DNA from: Hydra vulgaris
Lineage: Eukaryota > Cnidaria > Hydrozoa > Anthoathecata > Hydridae
Assembly (NCBI RefSeq): GCF_038396675.1
Contig: NC_088928.1
Location: 59,575,001-59,639,000 of the forward strand
Direction of reading: 5' to 3'
DNA length: 64,000 nucleotides
Position numbers and translations under genes: made by a program. Shown here in pieces: positions 9,027-41,371 of the stretch (positions are counted from its first letter, which is position 1; every line of letters begins with the position of its first letter). A model generated the notes under the pieces. The model was not told the DNA's origin and searched no databases. It saw only the letters and a list, made by a program, of their open reading frames with translations.

Positions 9027-9062
9027 ATCCGATTAAAGTATTAGGAATTAAATATTATTATA

Positions 9063-10709
9063 ATGATTAGTTCTTTTAATGCTAATTTAGAAAATAAAAT
9101 TGATGCTAGTTCTTTTCAGAACTCTTGCCAGGCATCTAAAGCTATGTTTCGGGAACTTAAGCATGATGAGCTTATTGCTGTTGACGAAGAAGAATCTATA
9201 AACAAGAGTATATCAACTTGGTCAAGAGACATTTCACTTTTACCAAATATATCTCACAATTTTATCAAGAAATATCTTGTTAATGATACTATACATATTG
9301 ATAATTGTAAAAAAGGAGCCAATAAACACCAAACTCTTGGCTATCGTTTATTTAAAGAAAACTATGTCAAAAATGTATGTGTTAAAGCAAATGTAACAGC
9401 ATCCATAAATTTGTTTATTGTTAAGTCTAATGTTGCTGCTTCTATGAAACGTAAACAATACGAAGTTTTTATACACTTGTGCCAATCTACTGGTGAAATA
9501 CTTTATTCGAAATGCCATTGTAAAGCTGGTGCGGGGGGCTGTTGTAAGCATGTTGCTGCATCATTATATCAACTAGTTGATTATAAAGAGTTAGACATTA
9601 AAGTGGTCCCAGAAACAGAAACATGTACTGATGTTTTACAGATATGGCATGTACCAGGTGAATCATCCAACTCTGAAGCAATTTTGTTTTCAAACTTAAA
9701 TTTTGAAAAAGCTGACGCTTTTAAAGACAAAAATAGTACTCGAAAAAGACCTTTAGCTTCAGGAACACGTAGATACCATTCATTACCAAATTGTTACGAA
9801 ACCTCAACTTTACAACTTCAAACTCTTTGTAAAGGTTTAGAAAATCTCTGCCAGGGGACATATATATCTTCAATAATTCGTGATAATAACTTTCAGGCAT
9901 GTTCCTTTTTTAATTCATCTCTGTCAACATTTATAGACAATGATATTGCAGAACCTTTTAGTAAAAAAGATGACCGATTGATAATTATTACTCTATTTGA
10001 CAATTTAAAAAAGGTGATTGATTTAAGTTGTTTGTCTACTGAACAAAAAGCATTTGTAGAATTACATTTAATTGTTGATATTGAGGAAGCTAAAAATATT
10101 GAAGTCAATACAGTTAAACAATCTGAAAGTACATTATGGTATCAAGAAAGATGCAAACGATTGACAGCTTCAAATTTTGGTACTGTAATAAATAGGTGGA
10201 AAAAAATTTACCCTACATCAATTTTAAAAAAATGTTTACAAACAAAAAATATCAAAGCAGGAGAAAACTGTATGTGGGGAAAGGTTAATGAAGATATAGC
10301 AATAAAACTATATGAAAACATAACGAAGTCAAGTGTTACTCGATGTGGTTTTTTTATAAACCCAAAATGCCCTTGGTTGGGTTGTAGCCCTGATGGAGTA
10401 GTTAGCGCTGAAAAAGTACTTGAAGTGAAATGTCCTTCTTCAAAAAAACATTTAACAATTAAGGAAGCGTGTCAAGATAAAAACTTTTATTTGAAATTTA
10501 ACGATGGTGCTCCAAAATTAAAAATAAACCATCCTTATTACTATCAGTGTCAAGGCGTTATGGCACTAACAGAAACTAAAACAATTGATTTTATTGTATA
10601 CACAGAAAAATCATTGCACATCGAAACAATAGAGTATGATGCGGAATACAATTATTTTTCCAGAGTTAACAGATTTTTATTTCAAATTTATGTCATCAGA
10701 AATATTTAA
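9063..10709 (+). CDS. SWIM-finger / YqaJ-type nuclease of the ISL2EU-type element
   Basis: 548-residue open frame from the first ATG inside the left TIR. The N-terminal half ends in a SWIM zinc finger with C151-H-C153 and C161-K-H163, followed by VAASLYQL. The C-terminal half (about 350-540) is a YqaJ-like PD-(D/E)XK nuclease: the entry helix around W359 (ERCKRLTASNFG), PWLGCSPDGVV with D444, LEVKCPSS with E454 and K456, and YYYQCQGVMAL with Q495/Q497. All expected catalytic residues are present. In known ISL2EU elements this protein accompanies the transposase and is presumed to process DNA ends or intermediates. The gene converges on the transposase, has no visible intron and no damage. A cellular YqaJ gene is unlikely because it lies exactly between the TIRs. 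Confidence 0.88.
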   Translation: MISSFNANLENKIDASSFQNSCQASKAMFRELKHDELIAVDEEESINKSISTWSRDISLLPNISHNFIKKYLVNDTIHIDNCKKGANKHQTLGYRLFKENYVKNVCVKANVTASINLFIVKSNVAASMKRKQYEVFIHLCQSTGEILYSKCHCKAGAGGCCKHVAASLYQLVDYKELDIKVVPETETCTDVLQIWHVPGESSNSEAILFSNLNFEKADAFKDKNSTRKRPLASGTRRYHSLPNCYETSTLQLQTLCKGLENLCQGTYISSIIRDNNFQACSFFNSSLSTFIDNDIAEPFSKKDDRLIIITLFDNLKKVIDLSCLSTEQKAFVELHLIVDIEEAKNIEVNTVKQSESTLWYQERCKRLTASNFGTVINRWKKIYPTSILKKCLQTKNIKAGENCMWGKVNEDIAIKLYENITKSSVTRCGFFINPKCPWLGCSPDGVVSAEKVLEVKCPSSKKHLTIKEACQDKNFYLKFNDGAPKLKINHPYYYQCQGVMALTETKTIDFIVYTEKSLHIETIEYDAEYNYFSRVNRFLFQIYVIRNI

Positions 10710-10766: not shown

Positions 10767-12432
10767 TTATTTGCTATCAGTTTTTATTAGAGGTGGCAGA
10801 AAAGTAACTAAATAACAAACTATGACCCATATTTTGTTCATGTCAGCAGCCATTGAAAGTGGAAATGTGTTTTGTAATATTCTGTAGTTTTTGATTCTTG
10901 CAATTGCACGTTCGACATGAATTCGCACAGATGCAATTCGTCTTGTTTCTAATTCTTTTTCCAATGTAAGTTGAAAATCGCCTTCAAGAAATGGTGGTAT
11001 GTTGAGACTAATTCCTTTTGGTAAGTCATTTACGATATCGAAACCTCTATCAGCCATCAGGCTATCACCTTTTTCTAATAATTTTAGTATGCCACAGTGA
11101 TTTGTTATCTGTTTATCACTTGATCTTCCAGCATATAAATCAGATACAAATGTAATGGCACCACTCGGTGCAATACCAATCAAACCCTTTGCTGTGTGAT
11201 GATGTTTATATTTTGAAAACATAGCTGATTGAGTGCGATAGCTAGTTGGCATTACAGTAAATATTTCTGTACAGTCTATAATTACACGAGTATTAGGGTA
11301 TACATCTTTAAAGCAGCTAGGCATTGTTTCATTAACTAGTTTTTTTGTTGGCCATATTGGAATTGATCTAAATTTTATGTGCAAAAAATCATACCAAGTA
11401 ATTAATATCCTACTGGTAGTGCTTGATGAAATATTAAACCGTATTGCTAAATCTTCTATAGGAAAGGCGCAACGTAGTCGAATTAGCACCATGAAAAATT
11501 CCTCTTCAACGTTTAATATACGTGGTCTTCCTCTTGTTTTAGATGAAGAATTTTCACTTAAATCGTCAGCAACAGTAGACATTGAACCCCAATAATTTAG
11601 TGAATATATTTCTGGTTCTAAAAACTTCATGACTACTTTAAATAGTTCAAAATTTTCAAAACCTGTGTAAAATTTGAAATGTTCTTTGTTATGTTTAAAC
11701 CTTTCAACTGTAAATTGTGATAGAAGTATTTTGTCATTGAGCTTACATATAGCTTCTTTTTGAGTGTTTTCTAACGCTTGTTTTTCTTTTATAATGTCCT
11801 CAATTTGATCTTTAAGAATTTTATTTTCTTGTTTTAATGTTTCTTCGTAGCTTAAAACAGGTGTCGATAGTTCTTCACTATAAGGTATTTGTATTGTTTT
11901 ATGTATTAAACCAAGGCTATTTTTGGTTTTCCTTGGTACACGAGCAGTTAGCTTAACTGTTTTTGGAATAATTGTTGGAACATTATTCATATAAGTTTTT
12001 TTGTTCCCTTGAAAGTGTGCTGAACAAACTCTGTGTGATTTTGCTAATTTGCTCTGTGCTAATTTTGGCTAACCATAACTTTCTTAACACTTTTTCCTTG
12101 GGTATAACATAAAATGATAAGTTTTTATTAAAACAATTTGGTACACAACAAGTACATCCACCACTTGTTGAACTGAAGTCAACTTCACTGTGTTCAACTT
12201 CTCTCAGTGAGATCGAATTCTGTGAAAAGAGTGAAGTTAAACTTTGTGAAAAGAGTGGTTCACTGTTTTCGCAAAGTTCAACTTCTCCGTTAAAAGTGAG
12301 TTCACCTTCAGTAATTTCACTAGCATCTTCACTGTTTTCATAAAGTTCAATTTCACTGTTTTCACAAAGTTCAATCTCACTGTTTTCACATAATTGAACA
12401 TCACTGTTAAAATTTATTAGGCTTTTCGACAT
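10767..12432 (-). pseudogene. THAP-DDE transposase of the ISL2EU-type element (one frameshift)
   Basis: ATG at 12430-12432 (MSKSLINF) lies just inside the right TIR. An acidic segment with three-fold CENSE-like repeats precedes a THAP zinc finger: CTCCVPNC, FYVIPK, LRKLWLAKI. Around 12030-12050 the frame breaks by one base; the THAP finger's last ligands (RVCSAHF) continue in the next frame, which runs from about 12040 to 10767. That part has a coiled coil (about residues 48-85 counted from the MNNVPTIIPK methionine at 11990), a helix-turn-helix (FPIEDLAIRFNISSSTTSRI) and a DDE_Tnp_4-like catalytic domain with D239 (IIDCTE), D314 (MADRGF) and E360 (IHVERAIARIK). It catalyses cut-and-paste transposition in the family. 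Either the copy is inactive, or there is a sequencing error or programmed slip at an AAAA run. Confidence 0.85.
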
Positions 12433-25072: not shown

Positions 25073-28000
25073 TTAAAATGGTAATGTTTTTTTTTCATTC
25101 ACAAATATTACTTGAGTTGATTGTTCTTTAATATCGTCATGTCTTTCTAACAGATTAAGTTTATTTGCTATTCTTTTAATAATAACAGATATATCGCCCG
25201 AGATAACACGTATTTCGGCAGCACGTACTTTACCATCATATGAATTTCGTAACCTTTGTATAACGCCCATTTTCCACATTGAACGTGGATCTTTTGGATC
25301 GTCAATTATCACAACATCGCCAACTTTCATTTGAAATCCCCAACTTTGGTGTGTCACGCTTTTATGCAATTCTCGTATATTTGTTAATATTTGGAAAAAA
25401 GTATTCTTTTTTCCAAATATGCCAATAGAAATCCAAAATTGCTTTTTGGTGTAAATACTTTTGTTTATCATTGCTTTGGTCTGTAGCTAAAAGGTTATTA
25501 AGATTCACAGATTCTAAAGGTAATTTTCGCCAAAACAAGAGATGATTTGGGGTTAGTAGTTTGTCGCCGGGTACCTCGTAAAGAAATGTAATCGGCCGGT
25601 TATTTATAGTAACCACAATTTCAGCCAGAATTGTAGTCATTTCTTCGTAAGTTACTCTAGATGTTCCAAGTACTTTTTTAATTACTCTCTTGGTAGTTCA
25701 GATCATTTTTCGAGTATCTCTCCTCACCAAGGAGCTGCTGGAACGTTGAAACACCATCGTATACGTCGTGAACTCGTGAAGCTTTGAGTTTCTTCCGCAG
25801 AGAAGTTAGAACCATTATCACTTCCGAATTATAAGGGTGCGCCATAGCGACTAATAAAGCGACGAAGACCAAGAATGCACGCTTTCGCTGTACAATCGGG
25901 TACCAAATCTAAATAAAGAAAACGTGTACTACAACATGTAGCAACAAATATCCACGCTTTATTCATCATATTAGTTTCATAAATATTTTTAATCATAATT
26001 GGACCGCAAAGATCTACTCCAACGTACTTTAATGCATATTTATCACTAACTCTCGATAAGGGTAGAGGCGGAGAATTCGGATACTTATAGGGTTTACTGT
26101 CAAATCTTCTGCAAATGTAACAATTTCTAATTATAGTCTTAATTAGACTACGAGCTTTTGTTAACCAAAACTTAGTTCTTAATTCATTAAGTGTTTCTTT
26201 AACACCACTATGTTTAGTAACATAATGATAATGGAAAATAATTAAATTCGAAAGGTAACTCTTATTAGGTAAGTATATAGGAAATTTAAAATCAAAGGGA
26301 ATCGGTGCGTTACTAAGACGACCTTGACAACGAATTAATTCATCAACAGTAAATCCTAAATCTCTTTCTAGTCGGTTGTAAGACTCGCTATTAAATATAC
26401 TTTTCTGAATAAATTTAATCCGCAACAATTCCGCATTATTTAGTTCTAAAGTAGTCATTGTATAAAAATCATTAATGAATTCTTTTTTGATAATACGAAC
26501 AAAACGTAAAACTAAAGCTGTAACCTTAGGAAGACGATCGTATGTTTTAAAATTCTTAATATTCATAAAATCTAAATTTATTATCGAATGTTCTGAAGAA
26601 ATTAAAGCTGCGACAGACAGAGAATCTCTTTGCTTTCTTAAATCAAATGAAGGCCATGAAATAAAATCATTGAATAGAAAACTTGGACCTTTAAACCAAA
26701 GGTCATTATTTTGAAAGGTACTAAATTTACAACCACGAGATATAATATCCGCTGAATTTTTTTCACTTTCAATATAACTCCAAAAATTAATATCAGACAA
26801 AGAACGAATTTTTTCTAAGCGTATCTGAACAAATGCTTCATATTTTTTGTTTACATTGTTTACCCAATAAAGACAAATAAAAGAATCAGAAAATAACTTG
26901 ACACAAGAAATATTTAAAACACAAGATAATTCTTTGTATACAACTGAAAACAAATTAGCTAATAACAATATTGCCCTTAATTCTAATTCAGGAATAGTAT
27001 TTTTAAGCAAAGGAGAAACTCTTGATTTAGAAGTAACTAGACAAGAATTCGCAATTTCCTCAGCGCTACTTCTTAAATAAATACAACACCCATACGCTTT
27101 TAGGCTCGCATGGCAAAAACCATATAACTCAAATTTTATTTTTTGGATGCTGCCTACACACTTACTATACCATCTTGGAATACAAATAAAAGGTACTGAA
27201 CCTAAATCATTAATAATATCGTTCCATTCAATCAAGATATCATCTCCTATAAGTGAATTCTAACCTAACTTTAACTTACAAATAGATTGAAATAATATCT
27301 TACATCTTACAATAATAGGATTCACTAATCCCAAAGGATCATAAAAACTTGCAATGAATCTAAAAATACTTCGTTTAGTAGGTCTATTGTCCACTAAATA
27401 CAATAAATCCTGAAAGGAAAAAATAAAGTTATCTTCAATTTTATCCCATTTTAAACCAAAAACTTTGTTTATTTCACTTGAGGTTGGGTTGTCCTCTTTA
27501 ATTAAACTATTAAGCTCCGTTGAATTTGACTCAAATTTTCTAAGATAAAAATTTCCTTCTTATAAACACAATTTTGCTTTATTATAAAAAATAAGTCCTT
27601 CGGAAGCATAATCGAAACTTGCATTTAAATCATCAACGTGTAACGATTGAATTAATTCCTTGCCAAAATCAAAATCGTTTGCAGCATAATGTTTAGCGTG
27701 ATTAATTAAGGTCGCAGATAAGAAAGGAAAAGAGGTTACGCTAAACAAAACTCGACACAATCAATGAACACTTAAATCAGCATTCTTTAAATTATTATTT
27801 TCTAAATTAAAGTCTTTATACCATATAAATCTTACAAAGCCACGATGCTTTTCAGCTAATGCAATGTTTAAAAATGCTTTCTCAATATCGGCAATTAAAG
27901 CGATTCGCTTTGCGCGAAAACGTAAAAGTGTACTATATAATGAAGTTGTAAGTGATGGTCCTGAAAATAGACACTCATTTAACGAAGGACCAGATGTGCA

Positions 28001-37110: not shown

Positions 37111-37450
37111 GAAAAAAATTATAGTTAGGTACTTGCATGAATTTTAAGTTTTGATTTTAATTATTTTTTTATGGTATTAACTTTAGATAATAAACAATAT
37201 TTAAAAATGCTTTTATGTTATCAGAAACAGTTAAAATAAGATTGATACTTAGAAAACGATATTTATTTAAAGTTGAAGTAATATAATAACAATGATAAAA
37301 CCGACGAATAAACATATTTTCATCCAGCAAAGCAAAATAAGATATGTAAAAATATCATCAATTATAATTAAGATACAATATTTAGCTTTTTTAGTACATT
37401 TTTGCGAAGCCTTTCCAAGCACGTCGGCAGTCGCAGAAGCCTAACACCGC

Positions 37451-37577
37451 TGTCACGTTAAATAAGTAGATCGTTAAATAAGTAGACAAAATGATATTCT
37501 GCGCATGCGTTAGTTTACGGATACTTATTTAACGTATTAAGTCACGTTAAATAAGTAGATCGTTAAATAAGTAGACA
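37451..37577 (+). repeat. Left TIR of the Ginger relic with internal direct copy
   Basis: TIR 37451-37488, then an inverted single unit (ATACTTATTTAACGTA), then a direct copy of the TIR at 37541-37577. The GTTAAATAAGTAG unit is probably the transposase-binding site; that is inference. Confidence 0.8.
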
Positions 37578-38189
37578 AACTGAACAATCGAGGCATTTTG
37601 CTAACCCAGACGAACAAATTTAAAAAAAAACATACGTTAACCGAACTAAAAGCATTTCCTTTGCCATGCGAACTGTTATTACTTAAGGGCATTTTTATAG
37701 TGATAATTTACTACTTTTAATAATATTTAACTCACGACGTATATTCTAGTCGCAATTTATATCTTTATAGTATAGTATGACAAGAAACATATTTTTAAGA
37801 AAAAGCTTTTTGATAGGCCATTCACCCGTATTAATGATATCAAATAAAATACTCATCTCACAAGGAAGTTTATTGTATTCCTAAATAATTTAACTGTGCA
37901 TTTTAGCAAAATGTTTTACATTAAATTATTTATCCTTAACCCTTAAACTTAATGATTGTAAAATTTGTAATTGTTACTTGATTCTACGCAGATAAATAGT
38001 AAGGACAGCATTCTGATATTATCCCAGAAAAAAGAAAAGAAGAGAATTTATTAGTTCGTGTCTAGCCTTTTTTTGTGTGTTAATTTACCTCCTCAGAGCC
38101 GAAAAAGACACTACAGTCAAGGAGGCTGCTTTAGTTGTTTTTACAACCCTCTCTCAAGTCTATAACTTCGAAACACAAACCATGACGAT

Positions 38190-38315
38190 CAAGATCGCTA
38201 CGCGGAGAAACAAGTTGAGCGCGGTACTGCCAGGGACGCGGTAGCGATCGAACTCAGAACTTTTTAATTATGAGGCGAGCGCTCTACCACTACACCACTA
38301 CTGTACTACCGTTGA
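38190..38315 (-). mobile_element. tRNA-derived SINE-like unit 2
   Basis: Minus strand: GTGGTGTAGTGGTAGAGCGC (A-box region) and GAGTTCGATCGCTACC (B-box region, GTTCGATC), then GTCCCTGGCAGTACCGC. The A/B boxes are well preserved; acceptor and anticodon stems do not fold, so it is a SINE head rather than a tRNA gene. Lies inside the Ginger relic. Confidence 0.55.
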
Positions 38316-38877
38316 ATAACAATCTAGACGGGTATTATTCGACGATTTTAGCGATTTTAATGTATGCATAGCGCAATAATAATAAAATGTGACCTAAACT
38401 TAGTTTACTATTTCTTACTATGAGAATGTTTTAAATACAAACGATATTAAAGAAACGACACACTTCATGCTACACTAAAACTTTATTTGGAAAATAAAAT
38501 CAATATAATAATATCCTTGCACATCAATGAGAAAAATAATATCCTTACACAATATAAATAGCAAAATAAAACAACATGGTTTTTAAGACCTTTTGAAAAA
38601 ATTTAACTTGGTTGAAACTTGGGCATTTTCGAAAGAAATTCGATTTTTCCACATGAAATTACAAGCCTACATAGAATAGAAATATAGTATAATATAAATA
38701 GTATCATGAAATCACAACGAATAAATAAAATTATTATAAAAATGCCTTTGTGCCAGAAAAGTACTTAATAAATGCATTGAATAATGTATGTCAATAAATT
38801 GATTTACAAAATGAACTCTAATTGAAGGATTTGAATTTTTAAATCAAATATATGTTAAAAATGTTAAAACAGCCATA

Positions 38878-39136
38878 TCTTTGATGGGCGGACATAAGAG
38901 TATAACTGCAAAAGTGTAACTTTTCAGGAGAGCAAAAAAACATTATTATGAACCCAATTATTTTGCTACAGAAGTCATATTTTGAGAAATGGGTTATTAC
39001 TTTTATTCTGTTTGAACCGAATGGTGTAACTATACTGTTAAAACCATTGATGCCGGCATACACAAGTCACATTTTCTCATATAAATCGTTAAATGGTCAA
39101 AAATGCAGTTATACTCTTATGTCCGCCCATCAAAGA
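38878..39136. mobile_element. MITE with about 36-bp TIRs and TA target duplication
   Basis: Both ends read TCTTTGATGGGCGGACATAA, continuing GAGTATAACTGCA. TA flanks both sides (38876-38877 and 39137-39138). 259 bp. Ends are nearly identical, which suggests recent activity; no coding capacity. Inserted in the Ginger relic. Confidence 0.88.
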
Positions 39137-39719
39137 TATATCAACATGCCAGAATAGTCTATACTTTCACAATATTCTATAAAAAAATTGATCAAATATC
39201 TCATTATAATTTAAAATTACATAGCCATATTTTTTAATTACTACTTTTGGTGTAGTTGTAATAGTAGCTATAATCAACTGCAACAAAATGTATGTAAATA
39301 AAGAACTGACTTTAATAACTGTACCTATTGACTATATCTTATATCGATAACCCTAGTTGAATAACTGATGACAGTAAGAAAAAAACAACTACAAAGTGAG
39401 CAAAACAAATCATCATGCCAACAACAAAATAAAGAACAAACAATAGTTGACCTAAATTAGCCAATTGTATAACTTTAGACATCTATAAGACACTTAAAAA
39501 ATAAAATAAGTAATGAATTTTTTAAATATTAACTAGAACATAAGGTACAAAAACAAATCAACAATAAAAAACAAAAAAAACATATTTATGTATATTGATT
39601 GAATTTAAATATTCAAATATGTCATAAAACAAAAACAGTAGAAATAACAGGATATATTCACAACATTGATAGTATTAAAGACACACTGTTTATGACAGTA
39701 TAACACAGTAATAAAAGGA

Positions 39720-40560
39720 AACATCTCTAATTTACCATTCTCAATACATTTCAGGTAATGCTACCGCATGTCATTATCTTTTTACATAACTAAACTTAGG
39801 TTGATACTGCTACACAAAACCATTGCATTTCTTTCTAAGAAAAAATCACAATCATTTTCATGTGCAACTCTATGCACTAACAATGGCACATCACCTTTAC
39901 TTAAACTATTAAAGAGTGAATCATAAAACTAAACACACTACTAATGTAAAACAACATCAGGACACATTACTTAGAAACACCCAATATGATTTTCTAACAT
40001 TAATCGTTTGCATACAACTGTAACTTTCTGAAAAACCACATGAATTAAAACAACTAAAAATGCAAAAAATCCAGATTTTTTAAACTTGGAAACCCAAACA
40101 TTTTAGAAAACTGATATAAAAACAAACTTTGTGCTATATCAATCAAGGTATCATCAACCCAGCAAGGTGAGTCTCTTAAAATATCTAAGGCCTTGTCTTT
40201 AGACTGTATTGACAAACTTTAAAGAAAACTTTAGAAAAATTTTGAACTTCGACAGCCCCTTTTTACAACGATACTATCATTAACAAATAGCTTTTTTCAA
40301 ACCTTTACCGCTACCAGTTTAAACTCTGAACCTTTTTCTCATTGATTGGTTTAAGGAAAATAAGCAGACTTTATCAAATAATCTAAAATTTTAGAGTTTT
40401 TTGAAGAGTACCAAAAATCTATAAAATAAAGTAGTTGCATAAATTGTTAATTTTTCAATATATTTACTTCAATTATCAGTAATTGTAATAATATATTTTT
40501 TTCAAGTTTTATTAATTCAAGAGGTCCAATAAGGTCTAAGGGAAGTTTGTGTACCTATAG
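39720..40560 (-). pseudogene. Gypsy-like integrase and C-terminal region of the Ginger relic
   Basis: Integrase pieces on the minus strand: LPLDLIGPLELIKLEK (40547 downward), KKYIITITDN-stop-SKYIEK, then EKGSEFKLV-like sequence. These are the first catalytic-aspartate block and the ITD block of an rve-type integrase. Further on: DKALDILRDSPCWVDDTLID, IAQSLFLYQFSKMFGFPSL, YDSLFNSLSKGDV, and HYLKCIENGKLEMFPF near the end. The last four blocks resemble the C-terminal cysteine-protease-like domain found after integrase in some Ginger-type proteins. Stops and frameshifts in every block; no open frame remains. Confidence 0.65.
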
Positions 40561-40711
40561 CCAGATTTTTTTAGTGCCCAAATGTAAGTCCCCAGACTTG
40601 TCTAAAGAAGGCAAAACTGATACGATCACATCTCTATACTAATTACTTTGTATTAGTATAAGTATATTGACTTATACTAATAAAATTCCATCAAGTAAAA
40701 GGGTTTGAAAA

Positions 40712-40762
40712 TTAGTGGCCCTAGGTACAATAAGCTTTTTTTACACTGTACCTAGGGTCACT
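40712..40762. repeat. Hairpin
   Basis: Arms AGTGGCCCTAGGTACA and TGTACCTAGGGTCACT around an 18-base loop, within the Ginger relic. Confidence 0.7.
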
Positions 40763-41329
40763 TTCTAAAAATTAGATTTAAATCCATAATAAATTTACAG
40801 TTAATTTGGTCTTAGATTGTTTTCAATAAGTATTTCTAGTAATACTTAATTGCAACTCTTAAATACATAACAAAATTGACTAATAGTTCTGAGCAAAATC
40901 GACAAATAAGTCAATGCATAAAATGGAAGCCCCAAAACAACTGTGAGTTTTGAGATGCTGAGACATAGTATAAAATTAACTTCAGAAACATAAAATAATA
41001 TAAAATATACAATAATAATTAACTCTTAATCATAAATTATATAAAAGTTCAACTTAAATAGTGGGTTATATATACACATACCACAAAGTTGACACTTTTT
41101 TATTATAATAATTTATTATTCCATCAGAGACTGCTAAACATCTTCAACAGAGTAATTATAGATTCGCATTTTAATTATATAATTTTAAAAAATTTTAAAA
41201 CATGATCATTTTTGTTTTTTGAGTTTATACCTAACGGAAACAAGGCAACTTATTTAACGATAGATTTAACCTACCTAACGGAAGCTTTGCGCTGTATCTG
41301 CGCAGGCGTTACGCTTGCGCAGAACTGAC

Positions 41330-41367
41330 TGTCTACTTATTTAACGATCTACTTATTTAACGCGACA
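41330..41367 (-). repeat. Right TIR of the Ginger relic
   Basis: Reverse-complement partner of 37451-37488; ends ...ACGCGACA and is followed by the CCGC duplication. Confidence 0.85.
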
Positions 41368-41371
41368 CCGC

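Follow-up and report, generated by a model that had tools for sequence, protein, structure and literature searches.

A 3917-bp element of the Ginger1 type is found in a 64,000-bp stretch of Hydra vulgaris DNA (contig NC_088928.1, positions 59,575,001 to 59,639,000; the whole stretch is called the window). The element is very probably one copy of a young non-autonomous Hydra Ginger1 family, which would be moved in trans by the transposase of an intact relative. It had been called Ginger-type in an earlier reading of the letters alone (the sequence-only reading); its ends and the CCGG-like targets of the family support this call and narrow it to Ginger1. Beyond that reading, the analysis adds that the family is young, that it is non-autonomous with a gene that was probably dead already, and that its members form end-to-end arrays. 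The features of the element are listed in Table 1, where, as in the text, L-numbers are stretches of the host genome and C-numbers its contigs.

Table 1. Positions of the Ginger1-type element and its parts in the window
Feature	Position	Strand	Basis
Ginger1-type non-autonomous element, 3917 bp	37451..41367	- (sense of dead transposase gene)	inverted ends, target duplication, near-full-length copies elsewhere with their own duplications
Target site duplication CCGC, left	37447..37450	.	adjoins left end
Target site duplication CCGC, right	41368..41371	.	adjoins right end
Left terminal inverted repeat, TGTCA start	37451..37488	+	37/38 matching right end
Right terminal inverted repeat, TGTCG start (inward reading)	41330..41367	-	37/38 matching left end
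Two CGTTAAATAAGTAG modules, candidate transposase-binding sites	37456..37485	+	pattern count; binding role predicted
More CGTTAAATAAGTAG modules	37521-37534 (-), 37545-37558, 37561-37574, 41246-41259 (-), 41333-41346 (-), 41349-41362 (-)		
Inner second copy of left repeat	37541..37577	+	L030/L031, L064, and L068 start at this position
tRNA-promoter-like stretch, possible tRNA-derived SINE (short interspersed nuclear element) remnant, tentative	38231..38325	-	sequence reading by eye
Nested small inverted-repeat element, 36-bp perfect ends	38875..39139	.	empty site in L035
Putative Ulp1-like fossil: NHI, YDSL, NDC, MR*HYLKCI blocks, one frame with stops	39743..39988	-	motif order, weak phmmer alignment to L083
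Putative Ulp1-like fossil, N-terminal (W) block WVDDTLIDIAQSLFLYQF	40108..40161	-	motif match; relatives L050 and L079 comparable
Putative integrase fossil: LDLIGPL (40539-40519) plus KYIITITDN*SKY in a second frame (40498-40460)	40460..40539	-	motif match

Ends, target duplication, and classification

Read inward, the two ends of the element are TGTCACGTTAAATAAGTAGATCGTTAAATAAGTAGACA and TGTCGCGTTAAATAAGTAGATCGTTAAATAAGTAGACA. The single mismatch between the 38-bp terminal inverted repeats is A/G at position 5, and the expectation for such a pairing within 5 kb is about 7e-12 from base composition. With gaps allowed, the match of the two ends extends to about 60 bp at 87%. With CCGC directly outside both ends, the precise ends and the exact 4-bp flanking repeats of the sequence-only reading are confirmed. 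So is the lack of a long open reading frame: stop-to-stop frames of the window copy reach at most 83 amino acids. A GC-rich target is notable here because four-mers of the form CCGN or NCGG are scarce in the window (268 of 63,997 positions).

In the portion of the original description used here (Bao, Kapitonov and Jurka 2010, PMC2836005), Ginger1 elements have TGTNR ends, terminal repeats of about 40-270 bp, and 4-bp duplications that are CCGG in 75% and CCGT or ACGG in 24%. The same portion describes an integrase-like transposase with an H2C2 zinc finger, a DDE core, and GPY/F and YPYY motifs, which carries an OTU or Ulp1 tail in nearly all families, and counts 12 Ginger1 families in Hydra. 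By its ends and targets the element is of the Ginger1 type, because TGTNR ends and 4-bp CCGG, ACGG, or CCGT duplications fit this description. Its 38-bp repeats are at the lower edge of the published length, and the target of the window copy itself is CCGC, not CCGG, ACGG, or CCGT.

The ends carry a repeated module. CGTTAAATAAGTAG, with up to two mismatches, occurs nine times in the window, and eight of these occurrences are inside the element; the chance mean is 1.27, and none of 100 shuffles reaches nine. The modules that the sequence-only reading placed at both ends are present, and they are likely candidates for transposase-binding sites.

At the left end, a second copy of the repeat lies further inside. 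In L030 and L031, this inner repeat, its TGTCACG end complete, is where the element begins, and CCGG flanks both sides. The outer 90 bp (37451-37540, one full terminal repeat included) resemble an added end. GC-rich subterminal motifs, TGCGCATGCG, TGCGCAGGCG, and TGCGCAAGCG, are also found near both ends (37500-37509 and 41299-41321); they resemble the NRF1 binding motif.

Copies in the genome

When the genome was searched with the element (the best 31 of 3,975 candidates scored), at least 22 places, including the window, covered 3,895 or more of the query's 3,915 bases. Thirty stretches (L009-L038) were taken for the study of the family, and target duplications were tabulated for 29 copies (the window, L009-L035, and L038). 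The right end was not found by pattern in four of them: L014, in which foreign DNA interrupts the right repeat, L034, which is truncated, and L026 and L032, which have lost a 16-bp module from one end and, by eye, have CCGG next to both ends. Among the remaining 25 copies, 23 have exact 4-bp duplications (14 CCGG, 6 ACGG, 1 CCGT, 1 GCGG, and the CCGC of the window), and 21 of the 23 are CCGG, ACGG, or CCGT. The other two copies are L011, with ATGG and ACGG (one transition apart), and L033, with CCGG and GTTA, whose right end has two changes. The sequence-only reading would be refuted by a missing integrase hit together with another duplication length in other copies; profile searches do lack the hit, but 23 of the 25 copies have exactly the 4 bp that it gave. 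TGTNR ends are also found in the compared copies; one right-end base is altered in L029, and L014 and L026 have an interrupted or shortened right end.

Genome-wide, the terminal repeat has 338 matches at up to two mismatches, inner copies counted, and the reversed control has none. Exact ends TGTCNCGTTAAATAAG number 258 (control 6), which corresponds to roughly 130 elements.

The family is young, non-autonomous, and recently mobile. The mean pairwise difference among 26 aligned copies, four of which are partial or shorter (L030, L031, L032, and L035), is 2.0% (range 0.08-3.0%). Their longest stop-to-stop frame has 136 codons, so none of them has an intact transposase gene. The closest pair, L024 and L025, is 0.08% apart and lies on contigs C4 and C6 with duplications CCGT and ACGG; for L012 and L013, 0.2% apart, the contigs are C2 and C10 and the duplications CCGG and ACGG. 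Because such near-identical copies sit at different targets, the movement is recent. The nested element of Table 1 is at the identical place in 25 of the 26 copies. The exception is L035, whose empty site reads gcc-ATAT-atcaac; some copies outside the set of 26, among them the second copy in L013 and those in L037 and L052, also align across this place without the nested element. Since 25 copies have both the nested element and a broken gene, the composite element itself moved and multiplied.

Outside Hydra, no exact match to 33 inner bases of the terminal repeat turned up in IMG/VR or in a collection of bacterial and archaeal genomes, and a search of IMG/VR for the Ulp1 remnant yielded no confirmed relative.

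Some copies carry other DNA. A sequence starting with TGTCACGGAGAAAACTGTCCGCGG interrupts a terminal repeat right after GATC at the right end of L014 and beyond the right end of L030 and L031. The terminal repeat has opposite orientations in these insertions, which would fit a second transposon with GATC as its target. Another case is a 5.1-kb pair of facing ends (L077/L078, C4:42061072-42066141), both of the window type and with GCGG on both sides, which is probably an element copy carrying an insertion. Beside a divergent copy, L056 (651-1094, minus strand) has a 148-codon frame that looks, by eye, like a Harbinger-type transposase.

Putative remnants of the transposase gene

The minus strand of the element holds blocks that resemble an integrase followed by an Ulp1-like protease. 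In the integrase fossil, 59 nucleotides separate the two D residues of LDLIGPL and KYIITITDN*SKY. The NHI, YDSL, NDC, and MR*HYLKCI blocks follow the His, Asp, Cys block order of Ulp1 proteases. Both fossils were recognised by motif patterns and not by a profile. A first version of the integrase-D motif and of the long Ulp1 patterns failed on the element (the YDSL-NDC spacing, for example, is shorter than the first pattern permitted), and the patterns were relaxed before the shuffle test, which is hence post hoc. Dinucleotide shuffling, repeated 36,688 times, produced the first integrase block 34 times, the second 4 times, and the MR.H block 8 times; it never produced the integrase pair, the W block, or any of the Ulp1 combinations. 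None of the motif combinations is found in the approximately 60 kb of the window outside the element. The minus-strand integrase and protease-like blocks of the sequence-only reading hold up at the level of motifs and in the expected order, but not in Pfam. Of the integrase, a first-D block is recognisable by motif; the second D, the E, the zinc finger, GPY/F, and YPYY were not recognised in the element by eye.

Relatives show comparable blocks. L050 (89% DNA identity) has LNLIGPL in place of LDLIGPL, integrase blocks likewise in two frames, and the Ulp1 block WLDDTLINIAQ. In L079, the W block reads WLNETLIDIAQ (WLNETLIDIAQRLLLYQF), and the Asp and Cys blocks share a frame after one stop. L083 is a 200-amino-acid stretch of a 545-codon open frame in the same genome, to which Pfam assigns Peptidase_C48. 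Around the Cys block and in the expected frames, phmmer aligned L080 (E-value 0.0036), L079 (0.0086), and the window (0.051) to L083 in a set of nine sequences. This alignment is weak, supportive of an Ulp1-like remnant rather than proof of one.

Differences between the window copy and L079, L080, L081, and L050 (77-89% identity) have no excess at third codon positions, by counts compared without a significance test. For example, the differences at positions 1 to 3 are 18/99, 14/96, and 16/98 against L079 and 7/57, 6/56, and 2/57 against L050. Because this excess is absent, the transposase gene was probably already dead before these copies diverged. The joined remnant, searched as protein against the genome, had 183 matches (the best 150 of 959 candidates scored), and every match listed has at least one stop.

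The dead gene also holds two short near-perfect hairpins with 16-bp arms (40714-40762 and 40648-40685); the latter is also present in L050.

End-to-end arrays

When 0-24 bp were allowed between facing ends, end-to-end junctions were found at eight places genome-wide (each on both strands) and at none in the control. The spacer is 4 bp in six of them (five CCGG and one ACGG) and CCGGGG in the other two, both on C6. The longest example, C6:2776247-2795822 (L069-L074), has five end-to-end elements joined by CCGG or CCGGGG, of which the last is inverted. At the C5 junction, the right-end region of the neighbour differs, and at two places on C2 and one on C12, two right-type ends (TGTCGCG) face each other. 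An additional junction with a mutated end and an ATGG spacer is found on C8, and a probable one, ACGG followed by TGTC, on C10.

If the 22 CCGG sites of the window are typical, the genome has about 313,000 such sites, and random choice among them would yield about 0.05 junctions (a rough estimate, N squared over T, for exact ends only). The estimate climbs to about 3 for 1,000 elements if older elements with altered ends are counted. The arrays probably arose when elements inserted, by tethering or local hopping, into their own duplication; for the two CCGGGG units, local duplication is favoured. A bolder suggestion, made only tentatively, is that a Ginger1 lineage, gene-less since before the split from copies of 77-89% identity to the window and mobile until recently at 3.9 kb, prefers its own CCGG-type duplications as targets and in this way builds the arrays, by tethered self-targeting of an integrase-type transposase.

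Origin of the family and alternative explanations

The following history would account for the family. An ancestral Ginger1 with an integrase-plus-Ulp1 transposase would have lost its gene through a frameshift, stop codons, and probably the loss of internal sequence. A small inverted-repeat element, and perhaps a SINE, would also have inserted into it. Its ends would stay recognisable, so that the transposase of an intact relative, presumably binding at the CGTTAAATAAGTAG modules, could cut at TGT...ACA and insert the element at CCGG-like targets with a 4-bp stagger. The duplications are observed; the enzymology would be that of the Ginger family. Each insertion would leave two CCGG-like sites beside the ends, and later insertions there could build the observed junctions. 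The enzyme probably comes from an intact relative acting in trans, which is the economical reading.

Three other explanations were considered. It is very improbable that the family is autonomous, or recently was, and decayed merely in the window copy. The integrase and Ulp1-like blocks are still recognisable, ordered, and on one strand, as such an origin would have it, but the 26 aligned copies and the listed matches to the joined remnant are broken as well, relatives of 77-89% identity lack the third-position excess, and the integrase blocks of L050 sit in two frames too. Equally remote is a DNA transposon of another superfamily that targets CCGG and duplicates 4 bp, with the integrase and protease blocks present by chance. 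The partly relaxed motifs, to which profile searches give no support, leave room for it; against it are the joint fit of ends and duplications to the published Ginger1, the absence of the motif combinations from shuffles and from the rest of the window, and the W blocks of L079 and L050, which are nearer to the Ulp1 pattern than that of the window. Unequal crossing-over or segmental duplication as the source of the arrays, in place of insertion into the element's own duplication, is possible though somewhat unlikely. Local duplication predicts an unusual spacer such as the CCGGGG common to two of the four C6 junctions, and the chance rate, based on exact ends only, rises with the number of older elements. 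However, the inverted last unit on C6, the different right-end region of the C5 neighbour, and the facing right-type ends on C2 and C12 do not fit, and with 0-24 bp permitted, the spacer measures 4 or 6 bp at all eight exact junctions.

Several results weigh against a trans-mobilized Ginger1 family with a dead integrase-Ulp1 gene. Pfam at E<=10 gave no family for the six frames of the element (with X at stops) or for its pieces, separate or joined. PDB searches of the remnant had no credible match, and neither Pfam on the relatives L079-L082 and L050 nor NCBIfam on L079 and L080 had any. The first integrase D is N in L050. BLASTP to L083 matched only L079 (0.010) and L080 (0.013), and not the window. 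A stretch that had never been coding would give the same codon-position result, so the coding ancestry hangs on the motifs. As to the targets, CCGC and GCGG occur less often than the published ones, and some of the 25 copies are not independent: L030 and L031 (0.13% apart) share flanks. Finally, genome searches with Peptidase_C48 (79 matches; the best 150 of 266 candidates scored) and rve (the best 150 of 1631 scored) found no autonomous donor. Among the matches listed, none lies, by eye, inside four longer pairs of facing ends (C5:9264041-9268932, C3:33891662-33896553, C4:12579477-12584633, and C4:42061072-42066141), which were drawn from the roughly 100 ends listed out of the 258 exact ones.

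Other features of the element and the window

ARAGORN found no tRNA gene, the tRNA-promoter-like stretch of Table 1 included, and Rfam at gathering thresholds gave no match in the window. Elsewhere in the window, an open frame at 25829-27259 (minus strand) has Peptidase_A17 (Pao) and Integrase_H2C2 domains, as in a BEL/Pao-type retroelement. A YqaJ-domain open frame (9045-10709, plus strand) adjoins an open frame for a DDE_Tnp_4 transposase (10767-12068, minus strand).

Comparison with known systems

Among DNA transposons, Ginger elements are the counterparts to the integrases of retroelements. A young family in Hydra that has a clear CCGG-type target and carries repeated modules at its ends offers a substrate for studying excision by a Ginger transposase, the mechanism of which is called unknown in the consulted portion of Bao et al. 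(PMC2836005). The end-to-end junctions, in turn, open self-targeting to testing. In other respects the find is ordinary: the group to which this non-autonomous element belongs has already been described in the same genus. A full-text literature search on non-autonomous Ginger, integrase, and CCGG targets returned the Bao paper alone, and the main text of the Hydra vulgaris AEP haplotype genome paper (PMC12220107) has no word beginning with Ginger.

Multimers of miniature inverted-repeat transposable elements (MITEs) likewise consist of end-to-end elements with one common target copy. According to what Jiang and Wessler reportedly described in 2001, they form via insertion into the element's own target duplication. 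Unlike in MITE multimers, the units here are 3.9-kb Ginger1 derivatives, and the common site is CCGG-like. Ginger2/Tdd shares TGTNR ends and 4-bp duplications in animals with the element. It was rejected on the CCGG-like targets of the copies, since the target preference given for Ginger2 in the same portion of PMC2836005 is AT-rich RTATAY.

The nearest known systems are the Ulp1-type Ginger1 families of Hydra (Ginger1-4 to -10_HM and -12_HM). As far as the portion of the description used here goes, they have the same genus, ends, 4-bp targets, and short terminal repeats, and the order of integrase-like and Ulp1-like blocks also recurs in the element at the level of motifs. The element differs in having no intact gene, a nested insertion, and a duplicated left terminal repeat, and its 3917 bp fall short of most lengths given for the listed Ulp1 families (3,758-7,091 bp). 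It counts as a new member of the known Ginger1 group, possibly one derived from a family that already has a name.

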